Source: PVC group bacterium
Lineage (GTDB): Bacteria; Auribacterota; Erginobacteria; Erginobacterales; Erginobacteraceae
Length of the DNA: 35,623 bases
Assembly (NCBI GenBank): GCA_003561965.1
Contig: PWXJ01000173.1
Coordinates: 1-35,623, forward strand
Direction: 5' to 3'
Positions 7,996 through 29,146 of the stretch are shown one piece after another. Each line of letters starts with the position of its first letter. Within the stretch, counting starts at the first letter, position 1. The notes under the pieces were generated by a model. The model had not been told where the DNA came from. It did no database searches and worked only from the letters and a program-made list of their open reading frames with translations. Made by a program: the position numbers and the translations under genes.

Positions 7996-9006
7996 ATGGA
8001 TGCCGGTATCGGTCCTTTAATCATCCTGATCGTCATCATCATCGCCCTGGTCTTGCTGGGGATCTTCTTTTACTTTCTCAAGGTCTGGGTTCGGGCCCTG
8101 GCCGCCGGAGCCCGCGTCTCCATCTTCAACCTGGTGGGGATGAAGCTGCGGGGGATCAAGCCGGTCCTGATCGTCGACGCCAAGATTATGGCGACCAAGG
8201 CCGGCCTGACCGTCACCACCAACGACCTCGAGGCCCACTACCTGGCCGGGGGATCGGTGGGGAAGGTGACCCGGGCCCTGATCGCCGCCGACAAGGCCAA
8301 CATCCCCCTGACCTTCCAGAAGGCCTGCGCGATCGACCTGGCCGGGCGGGACATCGAGGACGCGGTCCGGACCAGCGTCAACCCCCGGGTGATCGACTGC
8401 CCCAACCCGGAGAAGGGGAGATCCACCGTGGACGCGGTGGCGATGGACGGGATCCAGCTCAACGCCAAGGCCCGGGTCACCATCCGGGCCAATATCGACC
8501 GGCTGGTCGGGGGGGCGACCGACGAGACGATCATCGCCCGGGTGGGGGAGGGGATCGTGACCTCGATCGGCTCCGCCGAGACCTACAAAAGGGTCCTGGA
8601 GAACCCGGATTCGATCTCCCAGCGGGTGCTGGAGAAGGGTCTCGATTCCGGGACCGCTTTCGAGATCCTCTCGATCGATATCGCCGACATCGACGTGGGG
8701 AAGAACGTCGGGGCTGAGCTGCAGCAGCGGCAGGCCCAGGCCGACCTGGAGATTGCCAAGGCCAAGGCCGAGGAGCGGCGGGCGATGGCGGTGGCCCAGG
8801 AGCAGGAGATGAAGGCGCGGGTCCAGGAGATGCGGGCCAAGGTGGTGGAAGCGGAGGCCGAGGTCCCCAAGGCGATGGCCGAGGCCTTCCGGGAAGGCAA
8901 CCTGGGTATCCTCGACTACTACCGTTTCCAGAATATCCAGTCCGACACCCGGATGCGGGAGTCGATATCCGGGATCGAGCCGGGGCCGAAAAAACCCACG
9001 GGCTAA
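7996..9006 (+). CDS. floA: Flotillin-like protein FloA (UPF0365), copy 1
   Basis: A 336-residue protein starting at ATG 7996 after AAGGAGGTAGCGCA. A membrane hairpin or helix covers about 8-30 ([20 protein letters not shown]). Then comes the SPFH/band-7 domain of the FloA/UPF0365 type ([20 protein letters not shown]). A long Ala/Glu/Lys/Gln-rich helix follows near 240-300 ([20 protein letters not shown]), typical of flotillin oligomerisation. FloA proteins scaffold functional membrane microdomains, established for Bacillus FloA. The nfeD-floA pairing matches the arrangement known in Bacillus (yqeZ-floA-yqfB). A near-identical paralogue lies 0.7 kb downstream. Confidence 0.92.
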
Positions 9007-9692: not shown

Positions 9693-10703
9693 ATGGATCA
9701 GAGCATTGTCCCGTTAATCACCGTGGTCGTCATCATCATCGCCCTGATCTTCCTGGGGATCTTCTTCTACTTCCTCAAGGTCTGGATCCGGGCCCTGGCC
9801 GCCGGCGCCCGGGTCTCGATCTTCAACCTGGTGGGGATGAAGCTGCGGGGGATCAAGCCGGTGCTGATCGTCGACGCCAAGATAATGGCGACCAAGGCCG
9901 GTCTGACCGTCACCACCAACGACCTCGAGGCCCACTACCTGGCCGGGGGTTCGGTGGGGAAGGTGACCCGGGCGCTGATCGCCGCCGACAAGGCCAACAT
10001 CCCCCTGACCTTCCAGAAGGCCTGCGCGATCGACCTGGCCGGGCGGGACATCGAGGGCGCGGTCCGGATGAGCGTCAACCCCCGGGTGATCGACTGCCCC
10101 GACCCGGAGAAGGGGAAATCGACCGTGGACGCGGTGGCGATGGACGGGATCCAGGTCGAGGCCCACGCCCGGGTCACCATCCGGGCCAACATCGACCGGC
10201 TGGTCGGGGGGGCGACCGACGAGACGATCATCGCCCGGGTCGGGGAGGGGATCGTGACCTCGATCGGCTCCGCCGAGAGCTACAAGAAGGTCCTGGAGAA
10301 CCCCGACCTGATCTCCCAGCGGGTGCTGGAGAAGGGCCTCGACTCCGGGACCGCCTTCGAGATCCTCTCGATCGATATCGCCGACGTCGACGTGGGGAAG
10401 AACATCGGGGCGGAACTGCAGCAGCGGCAGGCCCAGGCCGACCTGGAGATCGCCAAGGCCAAGGCCGAGGAGCGGCGGGCGATGGCGGTGGCCCAGGAGC
10501 AGGAGATGAAGGCGCGGGTCCAGGAGATGCGGGCCCGGGTGGTGGAGGCGGAGGCCGAGGTCCCCAAGGCGATGGCCGAGGCCTTCCGGGAAGGGAACCT
10601 GGGTATCCTCGACTACTACCGTTTCCAGAATATCCAGTCGGATACCCGGATGCGGAAATCGATCTCCGGTCACGTCCCGGGGGAAAAGAAGCCGTCAGGC
10701 TGA
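9693..10703 (+). CDS. floA: Flotillin-like protein FloA (UPF0365), copy 2
   Basis: I place the start at ATG 9693, after CAAGGAGAAAGCG. The upstream part of the track ORF is translated repeat DNA. The protein has 336 residues, the same as copy 1, and differs from it at about 27 positions by my count. Changes cluster in the N-terminal membrane segment (residues 3-20) and the extreme C-terminus; the SPFH core and long helix are almost unchanged. DNA identity is also high in the core. This indicates a recent tandem duplication or ongoing gene conversion. Different membrane segments could give the two proteins different partners or lipid preference while allowing mixed oligomers; that is inference. 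Confidence 0.92.
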
Positions 10704-12546: not shown

Positions 12547-13695
12547 ATGGCAGCAGCTATGCAAACCGGGGATAGGAGGGGTTCAGCCGGGAACGGGTAT
12601 CTCCGGACGGCTGCCGCTTCCCCCCGGCTCGGGTGGAATTTTCTCAAGTATAATTTCGCCCCAAAATCCGCCAGACCTTTCCCCCCCCGGGCGATCTGCG
12701 TTTACGTGACCTATCGGTGCAATCTCCGCTGCCGGATGTGCGGGATCTGGATGCGGGAACCTGACCTGCCGCCGCCCGGAGAATTGTCGCTCGAAGAATT
12801 CAATGCCGTCTTCTCCGACCCGTTATTCCGTCATATCGAGTACGTCAATATCAACGGCGGGGAGCCGAACTTGAGGGATGACCTGTCTCAATTGGCCGGG
12901 CTCTTCATCGATAAGTTCCCGCGTCTGCGGACCATCACCATCAACTCCAACGGTCTCCCCTTTGCCCGGGCCGTCTCCAACGCCGAGCGGATCTCCCGGC
13001 TGGCCCGGGAGAACGGCATCCGGCTCTCGATCAGCGTTTCCCTGCATAAGATCGGCCCGGGGTACGACGAGATCGCCGGGGTCGACAACGCCTACTCCCG
13101 GGTCATCCGGACTCTCCGGGCGCTGCGGGAAATGCGGGACCGGGGCCTCTTCTACCTGGGGGTCAACTGCGTGGTTACCAACCTCAACGTATTTGACCTC
13201 GACCAAATGCTGGAATGGAGCCGGCGGGAGCGGATCCCGGCTAATTTCACCTTCGCTGAGGTCCGGGACCGTTTCAATAACCGGAAGATGAGAGGAGCCA
13301 TCGAACTCCGGAATGATGGCAGGGAAGCCCTGATCCGGTTCTGCCGCCGCCTGGGGGAGAAGAAATCCCTCTTCAATCAGCACGCCTTCAGGTACCGGGA
13401 GCTGGCCGGGATGCTCGAGTCCGGCAAACCGCGGACGATCTCCTGTCACTACGCGATGGGGTCGCTCATTCTCGGTTCCGAAGGGTCGCTGTATTACTGC
13501 CCCAAGAGCAAGTCGCTCGGCGATTGCCGGAAGCGGTCGGCATTTGAGATATTTTACGACCGGGGTAACTTGAAGTACCGCCGCGATATCCTCTTGCAAG
13601 CCACCTGTCCCGGTTGTCCTCCCTACACCTTCAACCGGTTCGAACTGGAGAAGGACCTGCTGAAATACGCCGGATTCCTGCTGTTTGATGTCTGA
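12547..13695 (+). CDS. Radical SAM protein with SPASM-like C-terminal cysteines
   Basis: A 382-residue protein. The [4Fe-4S] motif CNLRCRMC occurs near residues 58-65 in VTYRCNLRCRMCGIW, followed by NINGGEPNLRDDL (a GGEP-type SAM-binding motif) and a TIM-barrel-like region. The C-terminal part has several more cysteines (TISCHYAMGSLILGSEGSLY, YCPKSKSLGDC and ATCPGCPPY), resembling SPASM/twitch domains that hold auxiliary iron-sulfur clusters. Such enzymes modify peptides, sugars or lipids; the substrate here is unknown. The start is uncertain: ATG 12547 and 12562 both lack a strong ribosome-binding site. It overlaps the flippase gene by 8 bases, so they are translationally coupled. Confidence 0.8.
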   Translation: MAAAMQTGDRRGSAGNGYLRTAAASPRLGWNFLKYNFAPKSARPFPPRAICVYVTYRCNLRCRMCGIWMREPDLPPPGELSLEEFNAVFSDPLFRHIEYVNINGGEPNLRDDLSQLAGLFIDKFPRLRTITINSNGLPFARAVSNAERISRLARENGIRLSISVSLHKIGPGYDEIAGVDNAYSRVIRTLRALREMRDRGLFYLGVNCVVTNLNVFDLDQMLEWSRRERIPANFTFAEVRDRFNNRKMRGAIELRNDGREALIRFCRRLGEKKSLFNQHAFRYRELAGMLESGKPRTISCHYAMGSLILGSEGSLYYCPKSKSLGDCRKRSAFEIFYDRGNLKYRRDILLQATCPGCPPYTFNRFELEKDLLKYAGFLLFDV

Positions 13696-15244
13696 AAGGC
13701 CTCGAGAAAGGGCGGAAGAGACCGTCTTGCCCGGAGGAACCGGTGCGGAGCTGATGACCATCGCCAAGGGCGCCGGGATCGGTGTCGGGGGGACGGTGGT
13801 CGGGTCCGGGTTCCGGTACGCCTTCCAGGTGCTGGCCGCCCGGAGCCTGGGCTCCGAACTGCTGGGGCTCTTTTTCCTGGGCTTCGCCGTCTTCAAGATC
13901 TCCCGGATGATCGCGGAACTGGGTCTGGCCAACGGAGTGGTGAGGTACGTCGCCCTCTATAACGGCGTTGGCGACCTCGGGAGGGTCAAGGGTATTGTCA
14001 GCCTGGGGACGAAATGGGCGGCCGTCTCGGGGCTGGCCGTCGGAGTCCTCCTGGCCCTGCTGGCCCGGCCGCTGGCCATCGGTCTCTTCGCCCGTCCGGA
14101 GCTGACCCTTCCCCTGCGGCTGTTCGCCGTCGCCCTGCCTTTTTCCGCCGCCGGCGCGATGCTGCTCTTCGCCACCCAGGGCTTCAAGGTAATGAAGTAC
14201 CAGGCTCTGGTTCGGGAAATCTTCGAGCCCGGGCTGAGGCTGGCGCTGGCCGCTGCTTTCTTCGCTCTGGGGATGGAGATTTACGGGGCGGTCATCGCCT
14301 CCGTGGCACCGTTGATCTTGAGTCCCCTCCCGGCCTGGTATTACTTGAAGAAACTTTTCCCCGCCCTCCGGGACCGCCGGCTGAAGCCGGTTTACGAGGC
14401 GGCCCGGCTCCGGTCTTTCTCCTGGCCGCTGCTCTTTGTCCAGTTTATCGGGCTGGCGGTCCTCTGGACCGACACCCTGATGCTCGGGTACTTCCGAACC
14501 GCCGGGGAAGTCGGGATATACGTCGCGGCCCATAAAACGGCGCTGCTCGGATCGGTGGTCATCACCTCCTTCGCCGCCATCTTCGGCCCGGTGATCTCGG
14601 ACTTCTTCAACCGCCGGGAAGAGCAGGATCTGCGCCGGAGTTTCCAGGGCGTGACCAAGTGGATACTTACCTTCAGTCTTCCAATCTATCTCTTCCTGGT
14701 CTTCTTCCGGGCGCCCATCCTGGAGATCTTCGGCCCGGAGTTCACGGCCGGGGGTTCCCCCCTGGCCATCCTCTGTCTCGGCTGGCTGGTCTCCTCGGCG
14801 ATCGGACCGGTCGGGCAGATGATCATTATGACCGGTCGGCAGAAACTCCATTTCCTGAATATGTCGGGGCTGATGGTTATCAATATTTCCCTGAACCTGG
14901 TCCTGATCCCGGGGTACGGGATAGTCGGGGCGGCGGCCGCCACCGCCCTCTCCATCTCCGCGTTGAGCCTGGCCGAGCTGTGGCAGATCAATCGGCTTCT
15001 CCGGATCCAGCCCTTCCGTCGGGATTTCCTCAAACCGCTGGCGGCGGGGGCGGTCTCCCTGGCGGCCCTGGCCGGGCTGGAAAGGTTCGCCTTTGAACTG
15101 ACCGGCGTCGCCGGTCTGGCGGCCGGGTTTTTGTTGCTGGCAGGGTTCTACACCGGCATAATCTTGGTTCTCGGCCTGGGGCCGGAGGACCGGATCGTCT
15201 TGAACCGGCTGAAGAAAAAATTTTTCGAGAAAATTCCTTCCTGA
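13688..15244 (+). CDS. Wzx-like oligosaccharide flippase (MATE/MOP superfamily)
   Basis: The track gives TTG 13685, but ATG 13688 directly follows and gives MSERPRER; this overlaps the previous gene's TGA. The 518-residue protein is hydrophobic with about 12-14 helices in the repeat pattern of the MOP (Wzx/MurJ) exporters. Recognisable stretches are GTVVGSGFRYAFQVLAARSL, LGLANGVVRYVALYNG, VLWTDTLMLGYF and IPGYGIVGAAAATALSISAL. Wzx proteins flip undecaprenyl-linked glycans to the outer face of the cytoplasmic membrane. With the glycosyltransferases further on, this is the best evidence that 10.8-25.7 kb builds a surface glycan. No Wzy polymerase candidate is present nearby. Confidence 0.88.
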   Translation: MSERPRERAEETVLPGGTGAELMTIAKGAGIGVGGTVVGSGFRYAFQVLAARSLGSELLGLFFLGFAVFKISRMIAELGLANGVVRYVALYNGVGDLGRVKGIVSLGTKWAAVSGLAVGVLLALLARPLAIGLFARPELTLPLRLFAVALPFSAAGAMLLFATQGFKVMKYQALVREIFEPGLRLALAAAFFALGMEIYGAVIASVAPLILSPLPAWYYLKKLFPALRDRRLKPVYEAARLRSFSWPLLFVQFIGLAVLWTDTLMLGYFRTAGEVGIYVAAHKTALLGSVVITSFAAIFGPVISDFFNRREEQDLRRSFQGVTKWILTFSLPIYLFLVFFRAPILEIFGPEFTAGGSPLAILCLGWLVSSAIGPVGQMIIMTGRQKLHFLNMSGLMVINISLNLVLIPGYGIVGAAAATALSISALSLAELWQINRLLRIQPFRRDFLKPLAAGAVSLAALAGLERFAFELTGVAGLAAGFLLLAGFYTGIILVLGLGPEDRIVLNRLKKKFFEKIPS

Positions 15245-15294: not shown

Positions 15295-16950
15295 ATGGAT
15301 AACACCCGGCCCAGAGTCGTGGTGATCGGCCTCGACGGAGCGACCTTTGATGTTATCGATCCCTTGATCCGGGAGGGCCGGCTCCCCCACCTGGCCGGGC
15401 TGATGGAAAGGGGTGTCTCCGGTCCGCTCAACTCAACCGTTACGCCCAACAGTTTTCCCGCCTGGGTGACCTGCACCACCGGGGTCAACCCCGGTAAACA
15501 CGGGATCTTCTGGTCGCTGATCAGGACCGGCAGCGGTTCCTGCCGGTTCAAGCTGATGAGTTCCCGGGATATCCGGGCCAGGAGGCTCTGGCACCTCCTG
15601 GGAGATCAGGGAAGCCGGGTCGGGGTGGTCAACCTCCCGACCGAGTATCCCCCGGAAGCGGTGAACGGCTTTATGGTCTGCGGGGCCCTCTCCCCCGGCG
15701 TCGAGAGTGAATTCACCTACCCCCCCGGCCTCCGGGAGGAGATCCTGGCCGCGGTGCCCGGCTACCGGTGCGAGGTCGATTTCGCTCGGTCGAATTCAAA
15801 GGTTCTGGCCGGTCAGCTCCTTCGTTCGATCGAGAACCGCGAGCGGCTCCTCCTCCACCTGTTAAGGAATCATCCCTGGGACCTGTTCTTCGCGGTCTTT
15901 ACCGAGACCGATATCGCCCAGCATAAATTCTGGGCGGGTATCGACCCCCGCCATCCGGATCATCCCCGGCTGAAAGGGGAATTGAAGACGTTTGTCCACC
16001 GGGTTTACGAGCGGCTTGACCGGGCGGTCGGAGAGATCATCCGGACGGTTCCCCGGAACACCGTTGTGATGATCATCTCCGATCACGGTTTCGGTCCCTA
16101 TTACCAGTCTTTCTCCCTGCCCCGGTGGCTGACCGAGAAAAAATACCTGGTGCTCAAGGAATCCCCGGTCCGGGCCGGTCTGAAGAAGGTTCTGCAGGGG
16201 GCGGGATTGCTGGAGAAAACCAAGTCCGCCGGTCGGTCCCTGGCCGGCCGGTTCCAGGGTTCCCGACGCCGGCTCGATTCCCGTTACCTGCGGGAACGGG
16301 AAGCCTCCGCCAGCGGGAACCTGGAGGGAACCGTGGACTGGGAGAGGAGCCGGGCCTATTTCGGCGGTGACCAGGGGATCCGCCTGAACCTCAGGGGGAG
16401 GGAACCCCGGGGGATCGTCTCCCCGGGTCGGGAAGAAAACGCCCTGAAAGAGAAGATCCGGAACGAGCTTGAGAACCTGACCTATTCCAACGGCCGGCCG
16501 GTCTTCAAAAAGGTGTTGACCAAAGAAGAAGCTTTTCGGGGTTCTTCCCTCGACCGGGCCCCCGATCTGATCCCGGTGATCGATCACTCCCAGGCTCCCC
16601 CCGCGCCGGAGCGGTGGAAGTTCCGGGCGGTCCTTCCCGGCATCAGCGGGGCGCATTCATCCCGGGGGATTTTTATCGCCGCCGGCCCCGGTGTGGGGCG
16701 GGGCCGGTCTCTGGCCGGGTTGGATATAATTGACATCACCCCGACGATCCTGTATATGCTGGACCATCCGTTGACCCGGGATATGGACGGCAGAGTGATG
16801 AAGGAGATCTTCCGGCCGGAGCTGGTCCGGCGGCGTTCAACGCGGAGAGAGGGGTTCTCTCTCCGGGAGCCGGCGAAGGAAAAGACTTATACCCGGGAGA
16901 ACGAGGACGAGATTATCGGAAGACTGCGGGCGTTGGGATACATTGATTAA
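15295..16950 (+). CDS. AlkP-superfamily phosphohydrolase/phosphomutase (COG3379-like)
   Basis: A 551-residue protein. The N-terminus VVVIGLDGATFDVIDPLIRE holds the first metal-binding Asp. The segment NSFPAWVTCTTGVNPGKHGIFW is the active-site region of this group. Later metal ligands appear in IISDHGFGPYYQ (about 263-268) and SGAHSSRGIFIAAGPG (about 450-465). No signal peptide is seen, so it is probably cytoplasmic. The superfamily covers phosphodiesterases, phosphomutases and phosphoglycerol-type transferases; the COG3379 branch is uncharacterised. The C-terminus (TPTILYMLDHPLTRDMDGRV) is typical. In this cluster it may process a phosphorylated sugar or nucleotide-sugar, which is inference. 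Confidence 0.82.
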   Translation: MDNTRPRVVVIGLDGATFDVIDPLIREGRLPHLAGLMERGVSGPLNSTVTPNSFPAWVTCTTGVNPGKHGIFWSLIRTGSGSCRFKLMSSRDIRARRLWHLLGDQGSRVGVVNLPTEYPPEAVNGFMVCGALSPGVESEFTYPPGLREEILAAVPGYRCEVDFARSNSKVLAGQLLRSIENRERLLLHLLRNHPWDLFFAVFTETDIAQHKFWAGIDPRHPDHPRLKGELKTFVHRVYERLDRAVGEIIRTVPRNTVVMIISDHGFGPYYQSFSLPRWLTEKKYLVLKESPVRAGLKKVLQGAGLLEKTKSAGRSLAGRFQGSRRRLDSRYLREREASASGNLEGTVDWERSRAYFGGDQGIRLNLRGREPRGIVSPGREENALKEKIRNELENLTYSNGRPVFKKVLTKEEAFRGSSLDRAPDLIPVIDHSQAPPAPERWKFRAVLPGISGAHSSRGIFIAAGPGVGRGRSLAGLDIIDITPTILYMLDHPLTRDMDGRVMKEIFRPELVRRRSTRREGFSLREPAKEKTYTRENEDEIIGRLRALGYID

Positions 16951-16968: not shown

Positions 16969-18162
16969 ATGTTCTCGCAAGTTATTGAAAGCGTACTGAG
17001 CCGGACCGAAGAGATCGGCCGCTTCGATCCGTCAGGCCGGAGCCGGACCGGCCGGTTGCTGGAAAAGTCCGCCCGGGGGGAGAGACTCTCCCCGGATGAA
17101 ATCGTCGAGTTGATGAACGCCAGCCGGGACGAGAAGAACCGGGCTTTGATCCTGGACTTTTCCGCCCGCTACCGGAGACCCCGATCGGGGGACATTCTCC
17201 TGCTCCCGCCACTGTATTTTTCCAGCATCTGTGAAAATACCTGCCTCTACTGCGACTTCTCCCGGCACCGGGGTGACTGTCTCTCCCCGGAGGAATTTCT
17301 CGAAGAATTCGAGGCCCTGCTCGACTCCGGTTACCGGAGTATCGAACTGGTCAGCAGCCAGGACCCGGATCTCTATGTCCGCCAGGGACTGCCGGAATCC
17401 CCCGACCAGGAGTACGATATTGAGCGGGTCCTGGAGTATTTCGCCGCCGCCCGGCGGATGCTGGATGAAAGGGGGGGAGGGATGCTGACCAGCAACATCC
17501 CCCCCCTCGACCGAAAGAGTTTCCGGCGGTTGAAATCGGCCGGGCTCGACTGTTACCTGAGCTGGCTGGAGACCTTCCACCCCGGCCAATACCGCCTGCT
17601 CCATCCCCAACCGGGCCCCAAGTCGACCCAGGCCTTCCGCCTCGACGCCTTCGAGCGGGCGGTCGGCGCCGGGATCGGCCGGCTGGCCGGGGCCTTTCTC
17701 AAGGGACTCTATGACTGGCGGAAAGAGGAGGCCGTTCTCTACTGCCTGGACACCTACCTGAAGCGGGAGACCGGCCGCGGCTTCTCGATTATCGGGACCC
17801 CGCGGCTGAAGGGGAATTTCTGCCGGGAACCCTTTATCCGGCCCTATGTCGTCTCCGACCGGGATTACGAGCTGAACATCGCCCTCGACCGAATCCTCTT
17901 CGACGGCGTGCTCTGGCTCCAGACCCGGGAAGACTACCTCTTCAACAAGAGGTTGATCGACCGCTACGGGGCGGGGGTGATCCTGACCATAGACTGTTCC
18001 ACCGCCCCCGGAGGCTACCGGAACCGGCCGAAAGCCCGGGCCCAGTTTCCCGTCCACCGGCGGCGCCTGGCGGAGACGGTGGCCGGGCTGGAAGGCGACG
18101 GCTACCGGGTCATCTTCGACTGGGACGGTGACACCCTGGACGATTTTCAGAGAAGGAATTAG
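16969..18162 (+). CDS. ThiH/HydG-like radical SAM enzyme in a glycan cluster
   Basis: A 397-residue protein. After a helical N-terminus, LLPPLYFSSICENTCLYCDF carries the CxxxCxxC cluster motif in the form used by ThiH and HydG (tyrosine-cleaving radical SAM lyases). Later matches are FLKGLYDWRKEEAVLYCLDT, FSIIGTPRLKGN, DCSTAPGGYRN and a C-terminus GYRVIFDWDGD that resembles ThiH ending in KDWD. The second C-terminal cluster of HydG (CTxCxR) is missing, so ThiH or another lyase is closer. No other thiamine gene (thiG, thiS, thiF, thiC) is near. It may therefore be a repurposed family member making a building block or modification for the glycan. Substrate unknown. Confidence 0.8.
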   Translation: MFSQVIESVLSRTEEIGRFDPSGRSRTGRLLEKSARGERLSPDEIVELMNASRDEKNRALILDFSARYRRPRSGDILLLPPLYFSSICENTCLYCDFSRHRGDCLSPEEFLEEFEALLDSGYRSIELVSSQDPDLYVRQGLPESPDQEYDIERVLEYFAAARRMLDERGGGMLTSNIPPLDRKSFRRLKSAGLDCYLSWLETFHPGQYRLLHPQPGPKSTQAFRLDAFERAVGAGIGRLAGAFLKGLYDWRKEEAVLYCLDTYLKRETGRGFSIIGTPRLKGNFCREPFIRPYVVSDRDYELNIALDRILFDGVLWLQTREDYLFNKRLIDRYGAGVILTIDCSTAPGGYRNRPKARAQFPVHRRRLAETVAGLEGDGYRVIFDWDGDTLDDFQRRN

Positions 18163-18213: not shown

Positions 18214-19695
18214 ATGAAAATCCTCTGGCCGGTTATCGATCTCGACAAGGGCGACAACCAGTTTGTCGGCATAATGATTATGGCCGCCCTCCTCCGCCGG
18301 TCCGGCCATCACTCCGAGGTGGTGGACGCCGGGTATAACCGGGTCCGGGCCCGGATGCTGGAGATCGAACCGGATATCGTCGCCTTCAGCACCCCCTCGA
18401 TCTACTCCCGGACTTACGTCGAGCTCAACCGGAGACTGAAGCGGGAGTTCAAGTTCTACTCCGTTTTCGGCGGTCCCCACCCGACTTTCTTCCCCGAACT
18501 GATCGAGGAGGATGGAATCGACGGCGTCTGTATCGGGGAGGGCGAATATCCGATGCTGGAGCTGGTGGAGAACCTTTCCCGGGGAGATCCGGCGATCGGG
18601 ATTAAGAACTGGTGGATCAAGGAGGGGGGAGAGATCCACAGAAACCCCCTCCGGCCCCTGATCCGGGACCTCGACCGGCTCCCGCTGCCCGACCACGGAA
18701 TCTTCCGCCGGTCCGCCCCCCGGAGCATCTGGCAGGCGATGGTCCTGACCGGCCGCGGCTGCCCCTACGGCTGCACCTACTGTTATAACCACGCTTACAA
18801 GGCTCTCTACCGGGGGAAGGGCCGGATCATCCGGCGGCGGAGCGTGGACAATGTCATCGCGGAACTCCAGACCGTCAAGAGACAGAAGTCCTATCGGTTC
18901 ATCCGGTTTCTCGACGACCTTTTCACCCTTGACCCCGAGTGGGTCAGGGAATTTTCGGTCAGGTACCGGCGGGAGATCGGGTTGCCCTTCTCCTGTCTGG
19001 TCCGGGCGAACCACGTCACCCCGGAGATCGCCCGGGACCTGAAGGAAGCCGGCTGCTGGCGGGTCACGATCGGCCTGGAGGCCGGGGACGAGTATCTCAG
19101 AAATCAGATCCTGAAGAGGAATATGAGCGACGAAGAGATCCTCAACGCCTGCCGGATAATCAAGGAAGCCGGTTTGAGGCTGGTGACGGGAAATATCCTG
19201 GGGATACCCGGCGGGTCGCTGGAGGCGGACTTCAAGACGCTGGAACTCAATATCCGGACCGGGACCGATTTCGCCGGGGTCAACCTCCTCCAGCCCTATC
19301 CGGGGACGGAGATTCACCGTCTGGCGGAGGAGATGGGACTGCTCGACCGCCGGGAAGGCGGGATGAGGGAATCGACCGTGATGCGGATTTCCAGCCTGTG
19401 CTTCCGCGACGAGAAGGAAAAACAGATGGTGGAGAATCTGGAGAAGCTGTTTCCGATCACGGTCGGCTTTCCCGTTATTCGTCCATTGGTGCGGTGGTTG
19501 ATCAAACTTCCCCCCAACAAGGTCTTCTATTTGTTTTTGTCCGGATGGGTGAATTACTGTCACTATTTCCGCGCCATCCCGCCCCGGGTGGGTTGGAGGA
19601 CGATCTGGAAGAGGACCGGGATATATCACCGCCTGGCCCGGTTGGGCGAGACCCTGACCGCGAAGCTGAAGAAACCGCTGCCGGGAAATGCGTAA
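18214..19695 (+). CDS. B12-binding-domain radical SAM protein
   Basis: A 493-residue protein. Residues 1-140 form a Rossmann-like cobalamin-binding-type domain (VGIMIMAALLRRSGHHSEVV, YSVFGGPHPTFFPELIEEDG) but lack the DxHxxG motif, so any cobalamin would bind base-off without a protein histidine. The radical SAM motif CPYGCTYC lies near 188-195, followed by RFIRFLDDLFTLD and GLEAGDEYLRNQILKRNMSD, both typical of this family. The C-terminal 100 residues are basic and hydrophobic and may touch the membrane. Such enzymes methylate unactivated carbon or do other radical chemistry; the substrate cannot be assigned. It is 51 bases downstream of the ThiH-like gene and has AAGG before the ATG. Confidence 0.82.
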   Translation: MKILWPVIDLDKGDNQFVGIMIMAALLRRSGHHSEVVDAGYNRVRARMLEIEPDIVAFSTPSIYSRTYVELNRRLKREFKFYSVFGGPHPTFFPELIEEDGIDGVCIGEGEYPMLELVENLSRGDPAIGIKNWWIKEGGEIHRNPLRPLIRDLDRLPLPDHGIFRRSAPRSIWQAMVLTGRGCPYGCTYCYNHAYKALYRGKGRIIRRRSVDNVIAELQTVKRQKSYRFIRFLDDLFTLDPEWVREFSVRYRREIGLPFSCLVRANHVTPEIARDLKEAGCWRVTIGLEAGDEYLRNQILKRNMSDEEILNACRIIKEAGLRLVTGNILGIPGGSLEADFKTLELNIRTGTDFAGVNLLQPYPGTEIHRLAEEMGLLDRREGGMRESTVMRISSLCFRDEKEKQMVENLEKLFPITVGFPVIRPLVRWLIKLPPNKVFYLFLSGWVNYCHYFRAIPPRVGWRTIWKRTGIYHRLARLGETLTAKLKKPLPGNA

Positions 19696-19729: not shown

Positions 19730-21010
19730 ATGCGCCCTGTCAATCTGATAGATTTTTACCGGCTGCGGGGGCGGCAGTGGAGCCCCGCCGGGGCGATCGG
19801 CGATCTCCAGAGCGCCCGACTCCGGCGGTTGATCCGCCACGCCTATGCCTCTGTTCCCTACTACCGTCAGCTCTTCGACTCGGCCGGGGTCGATCCCCGT
19901 CAGATCCGGAGCGCGGCCGACCTCTCCCGGATTCCGGTCACCACCAGGGAAACCCTGGCCGACCTATCCCCGGCGGAGCGGACCGCCCGGGGAGTGGACC
20001 TGGAAAAATGCCGCCGTTCGGTGACCAGCGGGACCACCGGCGTCCCCCTGGCCACCCACTTTTCGCCCCGGGACGCCACCCTGATCAACCTCTCCTGGAT
20101 CCGGGCCTTCTCCGCGGCCGGGATGAAACCATCGGACCGGTCGGCGGCCTTTGTCGGACGGCGGGAAGTCAAGAGAACCAGGTCCTGGTATGAACATTTC
20201 GGTCTCTTCCGGAGAAGGGAGATTTCGGCCTGGGAGAGCCCCGATCTCTGGCTCGACCAGCTCCTCCGCTGGCGCCCCCGGGTGATAACGGGATACGTGA
20301 TGACCCTGAAACTGCTGGCCGAAGTTTTCCGGGAACGCCGGGTCGACGACTGGAGCCCGGAACACATTTTCCACAGTTCCGCGATCCTTGACCGGGGCTC
20401 CCGCCGGAAGCTCGAGTCGGTCTTCTCCTGCCGGGTGACCGACTTTTACGGTTCCGACGAGGGAGGATGCCTGGCCTGGGAGTGCCGGCGCTGCCGGGCG
20501 TACCATATCTGTTCCGATATGGTGGTCGTCGAGGTATTGCAGGACGGGGTTCCGGCCGACCCCGGGGAGGAGGGGGAAGTGGTGATCACCAACCTCCACT
20601 CCTCCGCCCAGCCTCTGATCCGCTACCGGCAGAACGATATCGTCCGGCGGGGGGCCCGCCCGCCGGTCTGCGGGAGGAGCTTCCCCCTGCTCGACCGGGT
20701 GCGGGGCCGGGTTGACGATTTCATAGTCCTGAAGAGCGGGAGAAAGATTTCACCCCACCCGGTCTATCATTCCCTGGATCCCCTGAAAGGAATCAGGAGG
20801 TGGCGGGTTATCCAGGAGAGCCCGGATACGCTCACCGTGGAGATCGAGCCGGCCGGGGAATTCGACGATTCCTGCCGGGGAGCGGTCGAGCGCAATCTGC
20901 GGGCACTCACTGCCGGGGAGATCGGGATCAATGTCATCCTCCGGGATAAGATCCCCGTCGACCCGGACGCGAAATTCCGGGCGGTGAGTTCCAGAATCGG
21001 AAGTCGGTAA
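19730..21010 (+). CDS. CapK/PaaK-like adenylate-forming enzyme
   Basis: A 426-residue member of the phenylacetate-CoA ligase / CapK group. Visible motifs: the ATP-binding loop RSVTSGTTGVPLATHFS, DFYGSDEGGCLAWEC, a CRRCRAYHIC segment like the Zn or structural motif of PaaK-like proteins, PLIRYRQNDIVRRG, and RVDDFIVLKSGRKISPHP near the C-terminus. The N-terminus RHAYASVPYYRQLFDSAGV is also characteristic. PaaK activates aryl acids to CoA thioesters. CapK-like relatives in capsule clusters are not well defined but likely activate an acyl group as adenylate. The gene ends 184 bases before the methyltransferase gene, the largest gap in the cluster. Confidence 0.85.
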   Translation: MRPVNLIDFYRLRGRQWSPAGAIGDLQSARLRRLIRHAYASVPYYRQLFDSAGVDPRQIRSAADLSRIPVTTRETLADLSPAERTARGVDLEKCRRSVTSGTTGVPLATHFSPRDATLINLSWIRAFSAAGMKPSDRSAAFVGRREVKRTRSWYEHFGLFRRREISAWESPDLWLDQLLRWRPRVITGYVMTLKLLAEVFRERRVDDWSPEHIFHSSAILDRGSRRKLESVFSCRVTDFYGSDEGGCLAWECRRCRAYHICSDMVVVEVLQDGVPADPGEEGEVVITNLHSSAQPLIRYRQNDIVRRGARPPVCGRSFPLLDRVRGRVDDFIVLKSGRKISPHPVYHSLDPLKGIRRWRVIQESPDTLTVEIEPAGEFDDSCRGAVERNLRALTAGEIGINVILRDKIPVDPDAKFRAVSSRIGSR

Positions 21011-21194: not shown

Positions 21195-22091
21195 ATGGAC
21201 CTCTCCGTCTATCCCCACGCCGAGAGCTTTGCTCGCGAGGTAGGGATCCCCGCCGGGAACCTTATCCGGGCGTTCGAGATCGAGAGAGAGTACCGCGGTC
21301 GGATACTGCGCGAAGAGGACCCGGCGGCGCGCCGGATGTTATACTCGGAAGTCTGCTCGAAAGTTCATCCGCTGTACCGGGTTACTCGTAGCCGGAAAGA
21401 CGAGATCGCCGCCAAACTCCCGGTTGTCAAGCTCTTCCGCCGGGAATTGACCGGCCGGTCGATTCTGGATCTCGGCTGCGGAACCGGGGCTTTCCTGCTC
21501 TGCGCCGCCGGATGGGTAAAACCTAAGCGCCTGCTCGGGATAGACATTGATCCGGACAAGATCGGGCCGGAGGACAAAATCATCAACTATCGGCGGATGA
21601 ATCTCACCGACTTTAGCCTGGAGGAATCTTTTGATGTTGTTTTTTCCGACAACGTGATGGAACATATCGCCCCGGCGGATCTGCCGGGGCATTTAAAATC
21701 GATCTGGAACGCCCTTAATGACGGCGGCCGGTTGATCGTCATTATGCCGAATCGGTTGTTCGGCCCCTCTGATGTCACCCGGGTGATCGACCGCAGCTGT
21801 ACCAACCGGATTCCCGCCGCCGGGATGCATCTCTTTGAAAGTACCTACTCGGAGATGATCCCGCTGCTGGCCCGAGCCGGTTTTGCTGAATTCGAGACGG
21901 TGATCCAGATACCCGGTCTGACCTGTCATCTTCCCCGGATCCGGATCAGCCCCCGGGTTTATCTTGAAATTGAGAATAATGATGGATTATTGAACCTGAT
22001 GTACAGGTTCCGATTTCGAGGAAAATGCCGGTTTAAGTTTATGGTGATTTTGCTATGCCGGAAATCAACTCCCGGCCGGGACATCAATTGA
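21195..22091 (+). CDS. Class I SAM-dependent methyltransferase
   Basis: A 298-residue protein. The SAM-binding motif I SILDLGCGTGAFLLCAA is near 92-108, followed by LGIDIDPDKIG (acidic residue for the SAM ribose). VVFSDNVMEHIAPADLPGHL and LNDGGRLIVIMPNRLFG are typical motifs II and III of glycan-type methyltransferases. About 80 N-terminal helical residues precede the fold (VGIPAGNLIRAFEIEREYRG). The target is probably a sugar or lipid intermediate of the cluster, by context only. A weak TAGG precedes the ATG. The end overlaps the start of the pyruvyltransferase-like gene by 37 bases in another frame. Confidence 0.82.
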   Translation: MDLSVYPHAESFAREVGIPAGNLIRAFEIEREYRGRILREEDPAARRMLYSEVCSKVHPLYRVTRSRKDEIAAKLPVVKLFRRELTGRSILDLGCGTGAFLLCAAGWVKPKRLLGIDIDPDKIGPEDKIINYRRMNLTDFSLEESFDVVFSDNVMEHIAPADLPGHLKSIWNALNDGGRLIVIMPNRLFGPSDVTRVIDRSCTNRIPAAGMHLFESTYSEMIPLLARAGFAEFETVIQIPGLTCHLPRIRISPRVYLEIENNDGLLNLMYRFRFRGKCRFKFMVILLCRKSTPGRDIN

Positions 22092-23365
22092 AGATTGTTC
22101 TGCTCAATACCCATTCCACATTGAATGCCGGCGACGCGGGGATCGTTCTCGCTCAGATCAGGCTGCTCAGGGATTACTGGCCCCGGGCCGTCATCTCCCT
22201 GACCTCCCGCACCCCGGAGATCGACCGCCCGGTTTACGAATCGCTGGGGGTGGAAGTCTATCCGCCGCTCACCCCCGCTCCGGGAGTTTTTATCGGAGTC
22301 CGGAAAAAATTCGGGAACACCCTGATAAACCTGGTGAACTTCAAGGACAAGCGGGATTTGCTTTCGGCGATCCGGGACAGCGACCTGGTCGTGAGCAGCG
22401 GGGGGGGGTATTTTTATTCATACCGGAGGCATTTTCCGGGCCCCACTTTCCTCCAGCACCTTCTGCACCTCGAGCTGGCCCGGGCCTATGCTAAACCGGT
22501 GATTTTTTTCCCCCAGTCGTTCGGTCCTTTCGCCAACCCCCCGGCCTCCCGGATGTGCCGGTCGATTCTCCGGGCCCCTAACGTCCTGAAGGTGTTCGTC
22601 AGGGAAAATATTTCCCGGACTCTTCTGCTGGACTTGCTGGGAGCCGACGGGGGGGAGAAGATCGCCATCTGCCCGGACCTGGTCTTCCTGCTCGAGCCGG
22701 GGGAAGGCCGGCCGCCCCCCGGTTTTATCTCCGCGCTCCGCCATCCGGTCCTGGCGCTGACCCTGCGTGACTGGCACTTTCCCCGGGCCGCTTCCGGTCC
22801 GGGAACGCATACCGCCCGGGAAAAATATTTGAGTTCGATGCTGGAGATCGCCTCGTCCTTTTTAAGACGTTTTGGGGGAACGGTGGTCGTGGTCCCGCAG
22901 GTGAGAGGGCCCGACCTTCTGGAGGACGATACCATCATCTCCCGGGAGTTCGTCCGGCGGAGCGGCGAGATGGGCGGACGAGACAAGGTCTTGCTCGCTC
23001 CCCCCTCTATCCTCGGCTCGCCGTCAGACCTGATCGACCTGATTTCCCGGGCCGACCTGGTGCTGGCCACCCGTTTCCATTCGTCGGTCTTCGCCCTGCT
23101 GGCGAAAATCCCCGTGGTTACCGTCGGGTATCATCACAAGGCTTCCGGAATCCTGGAGGAGTTGGGGCTGGAACGGTTCCTGGTGGATATCTCAGAGATC
23201 ACTCCCGCGAGTGTTCTGCCGTTGCTGGAACAGTTGATGGAAGACCGAGCGGGGTGGCGGGAAAAAACCGCGGCCAGCCTCCGGGCGGCCCGGGAGTTGA
23301 TTCACACCCGGCTGGGAGATACCCTGGAAGAATTTCAGAACAGGTACCCCGGCCGAGTTCGCTGA
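22055..23365 (+). CDS. Polysaccharide pyruvyl transferase family protein
   Basis: A 436-residue protein. It begins LKIVLLNTHSTLNAGDAGIV after 11 residues; the N..GD pattern is the family signature. VVSSGGGYFYSYRRH, IFFPQSFGPFAN, RENISRTLL and ISRADLVLATRFHSSVFAL, with VTVGYHHKASGILEELGLER near the end, are also typical of the WcaK/CsaB fold. Family members add ketal-linked pyruvate to sugars of surface polysaccharides. I use ATG 22055; a TTG at 22088, overlapping the upstream stop as TTGA, is possible and would give LKIVLLN as start. The overlap implies translational coupling with the methyltransferase. Confidence 0.85.
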   Translation: MPEINSRPGHQLKIVLLNTHSTLNAGDAGIVLAQIRLLRDYWPRAVISLTSRTPEIDRPVYESLGVEVYPPLTPAPGVFIGVRKKFGNTLINLVNFKDKRDLLSAIRDSDLVVSSGGGYFYSYRRHFPGPTFLQHLLHLELARAYAKPVIFFPQSFGPFANPPASRMCRSILRAPNVLKVFVRENISRTLLLDLLGADGGEKIAICPDLVFLLEPGEGRPPPGFISALRHPVLALTLRDWHFPRAASGPGTHTAREKYLSSMLEIASSFLRRFGGTVVVVPQVRGPDLLEDDTIISREFVRRSGEMGGRDKVLLAPPSILGSPSDLIDLISRADLVLATRFHSSVFALLAKIPVVTVGYHHKASGILEELGLERFLVDISEITPASVLPLLEQLMEDRAGWREKTAASLRAARELIHTRLGDTLEEFQNRYPGRVR

Positions 23366-23386: not shown

Positions 23387-24427
23387 ATGGTCGAAATGGA
23401 GAAAAATAATTCCCTGGTTTCGGTGGTGGTTCTGACCTGTAACGGCCGCCGGCACCTGGAAGAGTGTCTCGGTTCTCTCCTCGACCAGACCTGGGAAGGG
23501 CGGGAAATCATTCTGGTGGTCAACGGCTCCACCGACGGGTCGGCGGAGCTGGTCCGGGAGCGCTTCGGAGCGGCGGTCCGGCTGCTCGAACTGGGGGAGA
23601 ATATCGGTTATACCGGCGGGAACAACGCGGGCCTCCGGGCGGCCCGGGGCGATTACGTCGCCGTCCTCAACGACGACACCCGGGCCGATCCCCGGTGGCT
23701 GGAGGAGATGGTCGAGGCGCTGGAGAGACGGCCGGATTGCGGGCTGGCGGCCTGCAAGATTCTCTCCTACCGGGAGCCGGAGGTGATCGACAACGTCGGA
23801 CATCTGATCTACCGGGACGGGACCTTCCGGGGCCGGGGGCGGCTGGAGCCGGACCGGGGCCAGTACGACCGGGAGGAGGAGGTCCTCTCCCCCAGCGGCT
23901 GCGCCTTGATGGCCCGGAAGGCGGCCCTGGAAGACACGGGACTCTTTGACGAGGATTTTTTTATCTACGGCGACGACGCCGACCTTTCGCTGCGGATCCG
24001 GCTGGCCGGGTGGAAGGCGGTCTATGTTCCGGGCAGCGTGGTCTATCACAAGTATTCGGCCACCACCGGGGCCTATTCCCCCTTCAAGGCTTTCCTGGTC
24101 GAGCGGAACCGGATCTGGCTGACCGTCAAGTGTTTCCCCCCGGGGGCCCTGCTGGCGGCTCCCTGCTTCGCCGCCCTCCGGATCATTCTCCAGGCTTACG
24201 GGGCGCTGGCCGGGAAGGGCGCTTCCGGGGCCTTCGTCCGCCAGTATTCGGCCTGGACTCTCCCGGTGATCCTGGCCCGGGCCCACCTGGCCGCCCTGAA
24301 GGGCCTGCCCCGGATGTGGCGGAAGCGGAGAAAGATCCGCCGGAACCGAAAGGTAACCAACCGCGAGTTCTACCGCTGGCTGAAAAGGTTCCGCCTGACC
24401 GCCCGCGAGTTGTCCCTCAAGGAATAG
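23387..24427 (+). CDS. Family 2 glycosyltransferase
   Basis: A 346-residue GT-A enzyme. SVVVLTCNGRRHLEECLGSL at about 11-30 opens the nucleotide-sugar fold. VVNGSTDGSAELV and NIGYTGGNNAGLRAARGDYV follow, then the metal motif in VLNDDTRADPRWLEEMVEAL. DTGLFDEDFFIYGDDADLSL matches the rhamnosyltransferase-like GT2 branch. Residues about 250-310 form a hydrophobic stretch that may associate with the membrane, and the C-terminus is very basic (MWRKRRKIRRNRK). It lies 21 bases after the pyruvyltransferase-like gene. ATG 23387 or 23396 could start. The donor sugar cannot be assigned. Confidence 0.88.
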   Translation: MVEMEKNNSLVSVVVLTCNGRRHLEECLGSLLDQTWEGREIILVVNGSTDGSAELVRERFGAAVRLLELGENIGYTGGNNAGLRAARGDYVAVLNDDTRADPRWLEEMVEALERRPDCGLAACKILSYREPEVIDNVGHLIYRDGTFRGRGRLEPDRGQYDREEEVLSPSGCALMARKAALEDTGLFDEDFFIYGDDADLSLRIRLAGWKAVYVPGSVVYHKYSATTGAYSPFKAFLVERNRIWLTVKCFPPGALLAAPCFAALRIILQAYGALAGKGASGAFVRQYSAWTLPVILARAHLAALKGLPRMWRKRRKIRRNRKVTNREFYRWLKRFRLTARELSLKE

Positions 24428-24524: not shown

Positions 24525-25721
24525 ATGAAGATCGGAATCAACGCCCTTTACCTCATCCCCGGCCGGGTCGGGGGGAGCGAGATCTACCTCCGCCGCCTGA
24601 TTTCCGCCCTGGCGAAGATCGACCGGGAGAACAGTTATGTCGTCTTCACCAACCGGGAGAACCGGGGGACCTTCGACCTGGGGGAAAATTTTCTCGAGCA
24701 TCACTGCCCGGTCCGGGGTTTGATCCGTCCCCACCGGATCGCCTGGGAGCAGCTGGTCCTTCCCTGGCGGATCCGCCAGCACCGGATTGACGTCCTCCAC
24801 TCCCCCGGATTCGTCGCTCCTCTCTTCTGCCCCTGTCACTCGGTGATTACCGTCCTCGACCTGATCTACCTCGAATTCCCCGAGACCTTCCCCTTCCTGG
24901 CCCGGCAGTGGATGCGGTTCCTGGTCCGGCATTCGGCCCGGCGGGCCCGGGCGGTCATCGCCCTCACCCGCTACTCCCAGGAGGAGATTCTCTGGGGTCT
25001 CGATGTTCCCTTCTGGAAAGCCCGGGCGATCTACCTCGGGGGAGGGGAGGACCGTCCCGGGCCCGCCGCCCCCGGAGAGGAGGAGGAGATCCTGGCCCGC
25101 TACGGGATCACCCCTCCCTATCTGCTGACCGTGGCCGCCTCCCACCCCCACAAGAACCTGGTCCGGCTCCTCGAGGCCTACTACCGGCTGGCAGAGAAGG
25201 ACCGGTACCAGCTGGGGATCGTCGGGGTCCGACATAACCGCTACGGCGCCCGGCTGCTCCGGACGGTCGAGCGGCTCGACCTCTCCTCCCGGGTCATCTT
25301 CACCGGCTGGGTTCCGGAGCGGGACAAGGAGATCATCTACGCCCGGGCCGCGATGACGGTATTCCCCTCTCTTCTCGAGGGATTCGGCCTCCCGGTTCTG
25401 GAGAGTATGCGTTACGGGGTCCCGGTCGCCTGTTCCGATCTCCCTTCCCTGGCCGAGGTGGCCGGGGAGGCGGCCTCTCTCTTCGACCCCTACTCTTCGG
25501 AGTCGATCGTCTCCGCCATCCGGTCCTGCCTCTTCGACCGTTCCCTCCGCGAGACGCTGGTCCGGAAAGGGAGGGCCCACGCCGCCCGGTTCACCTGGGA
25601 GGAGACCGCCCGGCGGACCCTGGAGGTTTACCGGGCGGCCGCCGCGGCCGGGGACCGGGACAAAGGAAAGTTGACAGAATGGGCCCGCCGGCGGAAAATC
25701 AGCCTCTCCGCCCCGCGGTAG
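24525..25721 (+). CDS. Family 4 (GT-B) glycosyltransferase
   Basis: A 398-residue GT-B enzyme. The N-terminal domain starts MKIGINALYLIPGRVGGSEI, where the GGSE loop contacts the acceptor or donor. HRIDVLHSPGFVAPLF and VITVLDLIYLEFPETFPFLA follow. The C-terminal donor domain has LLTVAASHPHKNLVRLLEAY, RVIFTGWVPERDKEIIYARA, and the EGFGLPVLE sequence, the E-x7-E motif of GT4 retaining enzymes. Mannosyltransferase-type GT4 proteins look like this, but the donor cannot be fixed. It is the last glycosyltransferase of the cluster, and the lipoprotein gene follows after 12-24 bases. Confidence 0.88.
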   Translation: MKIGINALYLIPGRVGGSEIYLRRLISALAKIDRENSYVVFTNRENRGTFDLGENFLEHHCPVRGLIRPHRIAWEQLVLPWRIRQHRIDVLHSPGFVAPLFCPCHSVITVLDLIYLEFPETFPFLARQWMRFLVRHSARRARAVIALTRYSQEEILWGLDVPFWKARAIYLGGGEDRPGPAAPGEEEEILARYGITPPYLLTVAASHPHKNLVRLLEAYYRLAEKDRYQLGIVGVRHNRYGARLLRTVERLDLSSRVIFTGWVPERDKEIIYARAAMTVFPSLLEGFGLPVLESMRYGVPVACSDLPSLAEVAGEAASLFDPYSSESIVSAIRSCLFDRSLRETLVRKGRAHAARFTWEETARRTLEVYRAAAAAGDRDKGKLTEWARRRKISLSAPR

Positions 25722-25745
25722 CCCCGGCGGCAGTTGAATACGGCT

Positions 25746-26732
25746 ATGAAAAAACTTACGGGTAAATCCGGCTTCCATATCGGGGTATTTATCTCCCTGG
25801 TTTTCCTGGCCGCTTGCGGCCGCCCGGCCCGTTTCGAGGACCGGCTCAAGGTGGTCGGGATCTTCCCGGACACCCGGGAGAACCCTCCGACCGCGGTCAT
25901 CCACCAGGCCCTCGACCGGGCCGACCGGGACCTGCTGATTACCTATGAAATCGTCGAGAACGTCCCTCCCCGGGAGATGGAGCGGGTGCTGCTCGATTAC
26001 GTGAACAAGGGCTACGACCTGATCTTCGGCGACGACCGGGGGGCGGAGGAGACGGTCCGGAGGGTGGCCCGGGACCACCCCGAGACGGCCTTCTGCTTCC
26101 ACTCCCGACTCGGGTCGGTCGAGCCGAATTTTTCCGTCTTCAGTTTCTGGATCCACGAGCCGGCCTATCTCTGCGGGCGGCTCGCCGCTCACCTCAGCGA
26201 ATCCGGCCGGGTCGGGGCGGTGGCCGGGGAATCCCCCCCCGCCCTCAACGCCGTCCTCAACGCTTTCCGGGCCGGCGCCCTCGCCGCCGATCCCTCGATC
26301 CGGGTGGAGGTGGTCCTGGCCGGCGCCGGGGGGGTTCAGGAAGCTGCCGGACGGCTGATCGAAGACGGGGCCGATTATATCTTCGCCGGTTCCCCGGAGG
26401 CGATCCCGGTCTGCCGGGGGAGGGGGGTCCCGGCTTTCGGGAACCTGAGGAACTGGTACTCACTCGCCCCCGACACGATGGTCTCGGGGGCGATCTGGGA
26501 CCTGGGCCCGACGGTCAAGAAGGTGGTCGAAGAAGTGAAAAAAGACAATTACCGGGCCCGGGACCTCAGGGAGTGGTCGATGATGGCCAAGGGCGGAGCC
26601 TACCTCGCCCCCTACCACGCCTTCGATACCCGGATCCCCTTTCCGGTCAAGGACGAGATCGACGATCTCCGCCGGCTGATCCTCTCCGGCCTCTACCGGG
26701 TGCCGGCCGACGAGTCCCTCCCCGCCCCCTAA
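25746..26732 (+). CDS. BMP-family lipoprotein (PnrA-like substrate-binding protein)
   Basis: The track starts at TTG 25734; ATG 25746 (MKKLTGKSGFH) gives a standard lipoprotein signal with basic N-region, FISLVFLAAC and lipobox Cys. I therefore prefer 25746, giving 328 residues. The mature part has a periplasmic-binding fold of the BMP/PnrA type: LKVVGIFPDTREN, ETAFCFHSRLGSVEPNFSVF, PAYLCGRLAAHLSESGRVGA and RLIEDGADYIFAGS. BMP proteins bind nucleosides or similar ligands for ABC import. No permease or ATPase gene is adjacent, so it is an orphan here. Proximity to the GT4 gene suggests co-transcription. Confidence 0.82.
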   Translation: MKKLTGKSGFHIGVFISLVFLAACGRPARFEDRLKVVGIFPDTRENPPTAVIHQALDRADRDLLITYEIVENVPPREMERVLLDYVNKGYDLIFGDDRGAEETVRRVARDHPETAFCFHSRLGSVEPNFSVFSFWIHEPAYLCGRLAAHLSESGRVGAVAGESPPALNAVLNAFRAGALAADPSIRVEVVLAGAGGVQEAAGRLIEDGADYIFAGSPEAIPVCRGRGVPAFGNLRNWYSLAPDTMVSGAIWDLGPTVKKVVEEVKKDNYRARDLREWSMMAKGGAYLAPYHAFDTRIPFPVKDEIDDLRRLILSGLYRVPADESLPAP

Positions 26733-26852: not shown

Positions 26853-28319
26853 ATGCGCGACCCCAACCAGGTACTGGAGAATACCGTCCGGAGGTGCCGG
26901 GAAAAGGACATCCTGATCCCGACCTTCGCCCAGATGGCCGACCCGGGGCTGATCCCGGAGAAGGTCAGGGAGGAGCTGAAAGGAATCGGCCTCTGGGATC
27001 TCCACCCCCGCAACCTCTTCCGGATCACCTGGAAGAACGAACCCCGCGACCGGGGGGGCGGCTTCGGGAAGGTGAATTACCTGGAGATCCCCCGGGAACT
27101 GACCGGCATCAAGGCCCGGCTGATAATGATCCTGGGCAAGTATTTCCCCACCGGGGCCCACAAGGTGGGGGCGGCCTTCGGCTGCCTGGTGCCCCGCCTG
27201 ATCAGCGGGGAATTCGACCCCACCACCCAGAAGGCGGTCTGGCCCTCGACTGGAAACTACTGCCGGGGCGGGGCTTACGACTCGGTTCTCCTCGGCTGCA
27301 CCCCGGTGGCCATCCTCCCCGAGGAGATGTCGAAGGAGCGCTTCGAGTGGCTCAAGGAGGTCGGCTCGGAGATCTACGCCACCGCCGGCTGCGAGAGCAA
27401 CGTCAAGGAAATCTACGACAAGTGCTGGGAGCTGAAACGGCAGTTCGGGGACCGGGTGGTCGTCCTCAACCAGTTCGACGAGATCGGCAACCCCACCTGG
27501 CACTTCAACATCCCCGGCCGGGCCCTCGAGGAAGTCTTCAACCTGGAGAGACGCGAGGGAGAGAGGCTCTCCGCGGTCTGCCTGACCCAGGGGTCGGCGG
27601 GGACCCTGGCCGCCGCCGATTACCTCAAGGAGGTCTTCCCCGGGGTGAAATTGACGGTCGGGGAAGCGCTCCAGTGCCCGACCCTCCTCTACAACGGTTT
27701 CGGCGGGCACCGGATCGAGGGGATCGGCGACAAGCACGTCCCCTGGGTTCACAACCTCCGGCAGACCGACCTGGTCGCCGCCATCGACGACAACGCCTGC
27801 GTCGCCCTGGCCCGGCTCTTCAACGAACCCGCCGGGAAGAACTTCCTCAAGGGGATCGGGGTCCCGGGGGAAGCGGTTGACCGCCTGGACCTGCTCGGGA
27901 TCTCCTCGATCGCCAACCTTCTCTCGGCGATCAAGACCGCCCGCTATTTCGAATATGACGAGAATGATATATTGATGTCGATCGCCACCGACTCGATGGA
28001 ACTCTACGGCTCGCGGATCGAGGAATACCGGGAGCAGAGCGGCGAATACACCGACACCCGGGCCGCGGTCGATTACAACAGGTACATCGCCGATCTGGGG
28101 ATCGATTATATGCTCGAGACCTCTTATTACGACCGCAAACGGATGCACAACTTGAAGTACTTCACCTGGATCGAGCAACAGGGGCGGGAACTGGAAGATC
28201 TCAACGCCCAGTGGTACGACGCCGCCTGGTGGACCGATCAATTCCGCTCCACCGCGGAGCTGGACGAAAAAATCACCGAGTTCAACGCGAAAACGGGGCT
28301 GCTCCGGAAGTACGGCTGA
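26853..28319 (+). CDS. PLP-dependent PALP-fold (tryptophan synthase beta / cysteine synthase superfamily) enzyme
   Basis: A 488-residue protein. PTGAHKVGAAFG (Lys104) is the likely PLP-lysine site, in the S/T-x-K-x-R/x-A style of type II PLP enzymes. WPSTGNYCRGGAYDSVLLG is the Asn-containing substrate and phosphate loop. VCLTQGSAGTLAAADYLKE supplies a Gly-rich phosphate-binding stretch. It is longer than typical cysteine synthases, with a C-terminal helical extension (about 390-488, DYMLETSYYDRKRMHNLKY). I recall similar uncharacterised pyridoxal-phosphate-dependent proteins of about 470-490 residues, but cannot assign the reaction. Its neighbours are a small unknown and the glycine-cleavage genes, so an amino-acid lyase or synthase is plausible. 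Confidence 0.8.
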   Translation: MRDPNQVLENTVRRCREKDILIPTFAQMADPGLIPEKVREELKGIGLWDLHPRNLFRITWKNEPRDRGGGFGKVNYLEIPRELTGIKARLIMILGKYFPTGAHKVGAAFGCLVPRLISGEFDPTTQKAVWPSTGNYCRGGAYDSVLLGCTPVAILPEEMSKERFEWLKEVGSEIYATAGCESNVKEIYDKCWELKRQFGDRVVVLNQFDEIGNPTWHFNIPGRALEEVFNLERREGERLSAVCLTQGSAGTLAAADYLKEVFPGVKLTVGEALQCPTLLYNGFGGHRIEGIGDKHVPWVHNLRQTDLVAAIDDNACVALARLFNEPAGKNFLKGIGVPGEAVDRLDLLGISSIANLLSAIKTARYFEYDENDILMSIATDSMELYGSRIEEYREQSGEYTDTRAAVDYNRYIADLGIDYMLETSYYDRKRMHNLKYFTWIEQQGRELEDLNAQWYDAAWWTDQFRSTAELDEKITEFNAKTGLLRKYG

Positions 28320-28760: not shown

Positions 28761-29144
28761 ATGTCGCCCGAGGACCTGCTCTTCACCCGCGAGCACGAAT
28801 GGATCGAGTCCGGAAAGTCCCCGGCCCGGTTCGGGATCACCGACTACGCCCAGGGTGAGCTGACTGACGTGGTTTACGTCGAACTCCCCGAGGAAAACGC
28901 CGAGGTCAGCCGGGGCGATGTGGTCGGGACCCTGGAGTCGGTCAAGGCCACCTCCGACTTTTACGCCCCGGCCGACGGAAAGATCACGGCGGTTAATTCG
29001 GAACTCGAGGACAGCCCGGAGAAGGTCAACCAGGACCCTTACGGGGAGGGATGGCTTTACGAGATCGAGATCGCCGACCCCGGCCAGCTCGCCGGGCTGA
29101 TGGATTACCCGGCCTACCGGAAGTACCTCGAAACCGGCGAATAG
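28761..29144 (+). CDS. gcvH: Glycine cleavage system H protein
   Basis: A 127-residue lipoyl-domain protein, full length for the family. The lipoylation site is Lys62 in GDVVGTLESVKATSDFYAP. HEWIE near the start and GITDYAQGELTDVVYVELPE are standard GcvH motifs. H protein carries the aminomethyl group from P protein to T protein on its lipoyl arm. An AAGGAGAGAGAAT site precedes the ATG. It is 2 bases before gcvPA. No gcvT is in the window, so the T protein must be encoded elsewhere or be absent. Confidence 0.95.
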   Translation: MSPEDLLFTREHEWIESGKSPARFGITDYAQGELTDVVYVELPEENAEVSRGDVVGTLESVKATSDFYAPADGKITAVNSELEDSPEKVNQDPYGEGWLYEIEIADPGQLAGLMDYPAYRKYLETGE

Positions 29145-29146
29145 CG

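Follow-up and report, generated by a model that had tools for sequence, protein, structure and literature searches.

The window analysed here is a contig of 35,623 nucleotides from a PVC group bacterium. As judged from open reading frames and family searches of the genes identified, a run on its forward strand holds a radical SAM gene, whose product we will hereafter refer to as P, together with glycan-type genes:

12547–13695 (+): MoaA/SPASM-like radical SAM protein (Pfam, NCBIfam)
13685–15244 (+): polysaccharide flippase, Wzx/MatE-like (Pfam)
15295–16950 (+): type I phosphodiesterase/alkaline-phosphatase-superfamily protein, 18 bp upstream of P (Pfam)
16969–18162 (+): P, divergent ThiH/HydG-type radical SAM protein (open reading frame, profile and PDB searches, model)
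17230–17253 (+): CX3CX2C [4Fe-4S] site of P, C88-ENT-C92-LY-C95 (sequence; columns invariant in the ThiH/HydG alignment)
18214–19695 (+): B12-binding radical SAM protein, 51 bp downstream of P (Pfam, NCBIfam)
19730–21010 (+): CapK/PaaK-type AMP-forming ligase (NCBIfam)
21195–22091 (+): SAM-dependent methyltransferase (Pfam, NCBIfam)
22055–23365 (+): polysaccharide pyruvyl transferase, CsaB/WcaK-like (Pfam, NCBIfam)
23387–24427 (+): family 2 glycosyltransferase (Pfam)
24525–25721 (+): family 4 glycosyltransferase (Pfam)

An earlier note on this DNA had described P as a ThiH-like lyase lying directly before a B12-radical SAM gene, in a glycan-type setting and away from any thi or hyd genes. The described setting held: the B12-radical SAM gene is the next one downstream, a flippase, a pyruvyl transferase and two glycosyltransferases share the strand of P, and no thi or hyd gene was found among the genes identified in the window. 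Relatives of the B12-radical SAM neighbor (33–42%) were common in the phylum and CapK-type genes are common in glycan loci, so the adjacency of these two genes to P says little. We found zero P homologs and zero shared gene order at the loci around the closest B12-radical SAM homologs.

The reading frame of P begins with ATG and encodes 397 amino acids with zero internal stops; its GC3 (0.82) is similar to that of the neighboring genes, and RNA folding of its start region gave nothing informative. The motifs that had been taken to fit ThiH/HydG were all present, namely PLYFSSICENTCLYCDF (residues 81–97), STAPGGYRN, and FDWD close to the C-terminus, and the family searches agreed. The sole Pfam match was Radical_SAM (PF04055, 43.5 bits; cut-off 29.5), which with C88, C92 and C95 places P in the radical SAM superfamily. 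The best NCBIfam match was thiH (TIGR02351; 1.1e-35, 123.4 bits), far under its cut-off of 380, and HydG (TIGR03955; 5.9e-23, 81 bits) likewise fell far under its cut-off of 312. PylB, HydE, CofH and others matched more weakly than these two, the scores for CofG, CofH and MqnC/E were marginal, and NosL (TIGR04158) was not among the NCBIfam matches at an E-value of 0.01. Matches to PDB chains of HydG (3.6e-31 and 1.1e-28), ThiH (6e-19), HydE and PylB put the homology of P well past chance. The second cluster of HydG is missing, as the earlier note had stated: P stops about a dozen residues past DWD, as ThiH does, and the BATS domain profile matched only the HydG on contig C218 in this genome and did not match P.

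Fold, placement and distribution of P

An AlphaFold2 model of P, built with 29 ThiH/HydG relatives in the input alignment, reached a mean pLDDT of 82.5 and a pTM of 0.86, with an insertion at residues 135–148 modelled at low confidence. The best PDB folds were HydG (4rtb, 4wcx; TM 0.82), ThiH (7pd1; TM 0.79) and NosL (4r33; TM 0.75), followed by HydE, PylB, BioB and MqnE; because the alignment consisted of ThiH/HydG, this order is no independent evidence. HydG was the closest to P in sequence as well (30–34% identity), with ThiH at ~24%.

In a maximum-likelihood tree of 47 proteins, from which CofG, CofH and MqnC/E were left out, the sequences of ThiH and those of HydG each formed a clade that excluded P (support 100/98 and 98/95, respectively); P lay between the two on a branch of 3.9 changes per site (3.9–4.1 across trees). 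A sister relationship to ThiH (support 75/36) was indistinguishable from one to HydG (p-AU 0.37). For the C-terminal half, in a tree with a NosL fragment, the mean identity of P was 23% to NosL, 32% to HydG and 28% to ThiH, and P kept to a separate long branch and did not join NosL. The earlier note had held P to be neither canonical ThiH nor HydG, an idea that would fall if P lay inside ThiH in a genome with no other copy; P lies outside both clades, with both profile scores under cut-off, and the idea stands. P is an intact, very divergent member of the ThiH/HydG/NosL radical SAM group.

A separate thiH in the genome had been suggested as a further point to check. In the host genome (76% complete) no second ThiH was found and ThiG was not detected, nor was ThiG detected in a same-genus genome; the relative that the host genome does carry is a true HydG (L032, 463.5 bits, over the cut-off of 312), along with a true HydE (L034, 330.5 bits, also over cut-off). 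Strong ThiG matches were present in three genomes of the phylum, each within ~250 bp of a ThiH match. With a HydG and HydE of its own and no ThiG or second ThiH detected in this 76% complete genome, neither thiamine nor H-cluster synthesis appears to explain P.

No ortholog of P was found in 384 related and diverse genomes, 43 of them from its own phylum, where nothing but P itself scored above ~120 bits; an earlier set of 145 relatives likewise gave nothing above ~120 bits except P. The genome matches examined by family search were HydG or ThiH, plus the HydE of the host genome. Scanning genome_contigs with the pattern C[DE]NxCxYC returned at least 117 stretches; the matches listed were mostly clostridial ThiH, and none of them was closer to P than ~109 bits. 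Peptide patterns taken from P alone had no match in genome_contigs or viral_contigs, a stricter pattern had none in viral_contigs, and a plasmid scan gave only distant ThiH/HydG-like matches. Searches of small phyla near G134, G083 and G094 (8, 3 and 5 genomes) revealed no P ortholog. P is an orphan within the genomes searched and these limited pattern scans. Separately, a HydG in G083 (L159, contig C28) appears to be fused to a histidine kinase, which precedes it in a single frame of 1113 amino acids.

Active-site residues

In these enzymes, small changes in the active site are known to set both the amino acid used and the bond that breaks (PMC9046217). The tyrosine-bound structure of Thermosinus ThiH shows R300 touching both the amino and the carboxyl group of the substrate and E158 touching the carboxyl group; T299, S318 and S321 make contact with the phenolate oxygen, and R306 stabilises the phenolate. 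R306 and a beta-bulge have been proposed as the primary markers of tyrosine over tryptophan use (PMC9046217). We read P against this structure using a map of 165 ThiH/HydG sequences, in which counts pool HydG with ThiH. Two positions stood out:

17926–17928 (+): R320 of P, equivalent to ThiH R300 (predicted binder of the substrate amino/carboxylate end), kept (Arg in 162/165; PMC9046217)
17944–17946 (+): N326 of P, in the column of ThiH R306 (tyrosine-phenolate marker), lost (Arg in 160/161 ungapped; NosL has Gln)

In the alignments inspected, no gap separates the TRE motif from the column that pairs R306 with N326. T299 is also kept (T319), as are Y83, E201, H212 and K218, and the E158 column holds Asn in P as it does in HydG. 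As a whole, the tyrosine-binding set of ThiH is broken in P: R300 and T299 are kept, while R306 and E158 have become Asn. In P the SAGS loop, the serine crown, is replaced by ILTIDCST, with an insertion. Its placement differs among three alignments, which makes single-residue claims there unsafe, though the motif itself is gone. Other near-invariant positions have changed as well: the Gln of QETY (165/165) is L200, a near-invariant His (163/165) is L260, the Ser of ISxPR (164/165) is G276, and the GE motif (Gly in 159/165, Glu in 157/165) reads S130 and Q131. With the GE motif, the His and the QETY Gln lost, the chemistry may have shifted beyond the substrate alone.

These residues complete the comparison with the known enzymes. 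P shares with ThiH its single-domain length, one CX3CX2C cluster, the TRE arginine and an FDWD-like end, but lacks R306, E158 and SAGS; canonical ThiH was rejected on score, tree, residues and the failure to detect ThiG in the 76% complete genome. HydG differs by its C-terminal second-cluster domain and by keeping R306 and the conserved His, and P was rejected as the HydG of this genome since a separate one exists. NosL has the fold, the TRE arginine and a non-Arg residue at the R306 column in common with P, but shows a one-residue deletion after TRE where P has an insertion, and no thiopeptide genes were recognised; NosL was rejected as an identity on percent identity and the fragment tree.

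Candidate chemistry and alternatives

The radical SAM lyases of this type that have been characterised are, to our knowledge, ThiH, HydG and NosL. P is a candidate amino-acid-type lyase within a glycan-biosynthesis gene run, and its substrate is probably not tyrosine. That it is a functional, highly divergent member of the aromatic-amino-acid-lyase group acting on a new substrate is a putative assignment, which we give a little short of an even chance. The family scores, PDB matches, model, tree, residue map, the genome's own HydG and HydE, the undetected ThiG, and the 18 and 51 bp spacings count for this reading, and the lack of an ortholog and the loss of the GE motif, the His and the QETY Gln count against it. 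P would cleave SAM to yield a 5'-deoxyadenosyl radical, and R320 would hold the substrate, an amino acid or something similar with a non-phenolate side chain, by its alpha-amino/carboxylate end. From the fold and this one arginine, a radical would be expected to form at the amino nitrogen, with bond breakage at the alpha carbon to follow. The fragment, perhaps first activated by the CapK-type ligase and methylated, might then decorate the surface glycan built by the neighboring genes. A bolder version, in which P founds a fourth functional line beside ThiH, HydG and NosL, using neither tyrosine nor tryptophan and feeding a fragment into a surface glycan or glycolipid, is possible but doubtful. 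If active, P would join radical amino-acid cleavage to glycan modification, a link for which a limited literature search found no precedent. By keeping the amino-acid-binding arginine and dropping the phenolate arginine, P offers a natural test of the substrate rules (PMC9046217).

The tyrosine-lyase-like reaction suggested in the earlier note was weakened by the residue map, and tyrosine is a less likely substrate than was held there because R306 is Asn and SAGS is not conserved. As a drifted tyrosine lyase, P would supply the glycan pathway with dehydroglycine/glyoxylate together with p-cresol or a hydroxybenzyl fragment. R320, T319, Y83, E201, H212 and K218 are retained and HydG is the nearest PDB relative, yet the column that is Asn in P is Arg in nearly every ThiH/HydG sequence and, with the beta-bulge, is named a primary marker of tyrosine over tryptophan (PMC9046217); we consider this reading unlikely. 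The loss of several tyrosine-lyase invariant residues and the glycan gene context would also suit a different radical chemistry on the same scaffold, for example on an amino sugar, a nucleotide sugar or a peptide; R320 would then bind a phosphate or a carboxylate. This appears rather improbable, as substrate-side residues common to ThiH, HydG and NosL, the TRE arginine among them, are kept in P.

In nosiheptide biosynthesis, the NosL product is adenylated by NosI and methylated by NosN (PMC5585349). By analogy, P might start from an aromatic amino acid and yield an aryl carboxylic acid, to be activated by the CapK-type ligase, methylated by the B12-radical SAM protein and attached to the glycan. 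The gene order (P, B12-radical SAM, AMP ligase, methyltransferase) and the amide residue at the R306 column of both proteins (Gln in NosL, Asn in P) are consistent with this nosiheptide precedent, but the low identity to the NosL C-terminal fragment, the lack of grouping with NosL, the opposite length changes after TRE and the absence of a recognised carrier protein among the genes identified make it improbable. That P is a copy in decay or without catalytic activity, derived for instance from a HydG, would fit its very long branch and its lack of a relative in its own genus, family and phylum among the genomes searched, but is highly improbable given its full-length frame, neighbor-like codon make-up, intact cluster motif and good model confidence, and it is not especially near the genome's own HydG (95 bits).

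Other genes in the window

Directly after the glycan run lies a Bmp/PnrA-like binding protein gene (25734–26732), ahead of a PLP-dependent CysK-like enzyme (26853–28319) that precedes GcvH-like, GcvPA and GcvPB-like genes (28761–31975, +). A serine hydroxymethyltransferase-like gene (34432–35589, −) is interrupted by an in-frame TAG where the same-genus genome has GAG, most likely a nonsense mutation or an assembly error. Upstream of the run, two tandem, very similar flotillin-like FloA genes (7996–9006 and about 9693–10703, +) lie beside NfeD-type genes.
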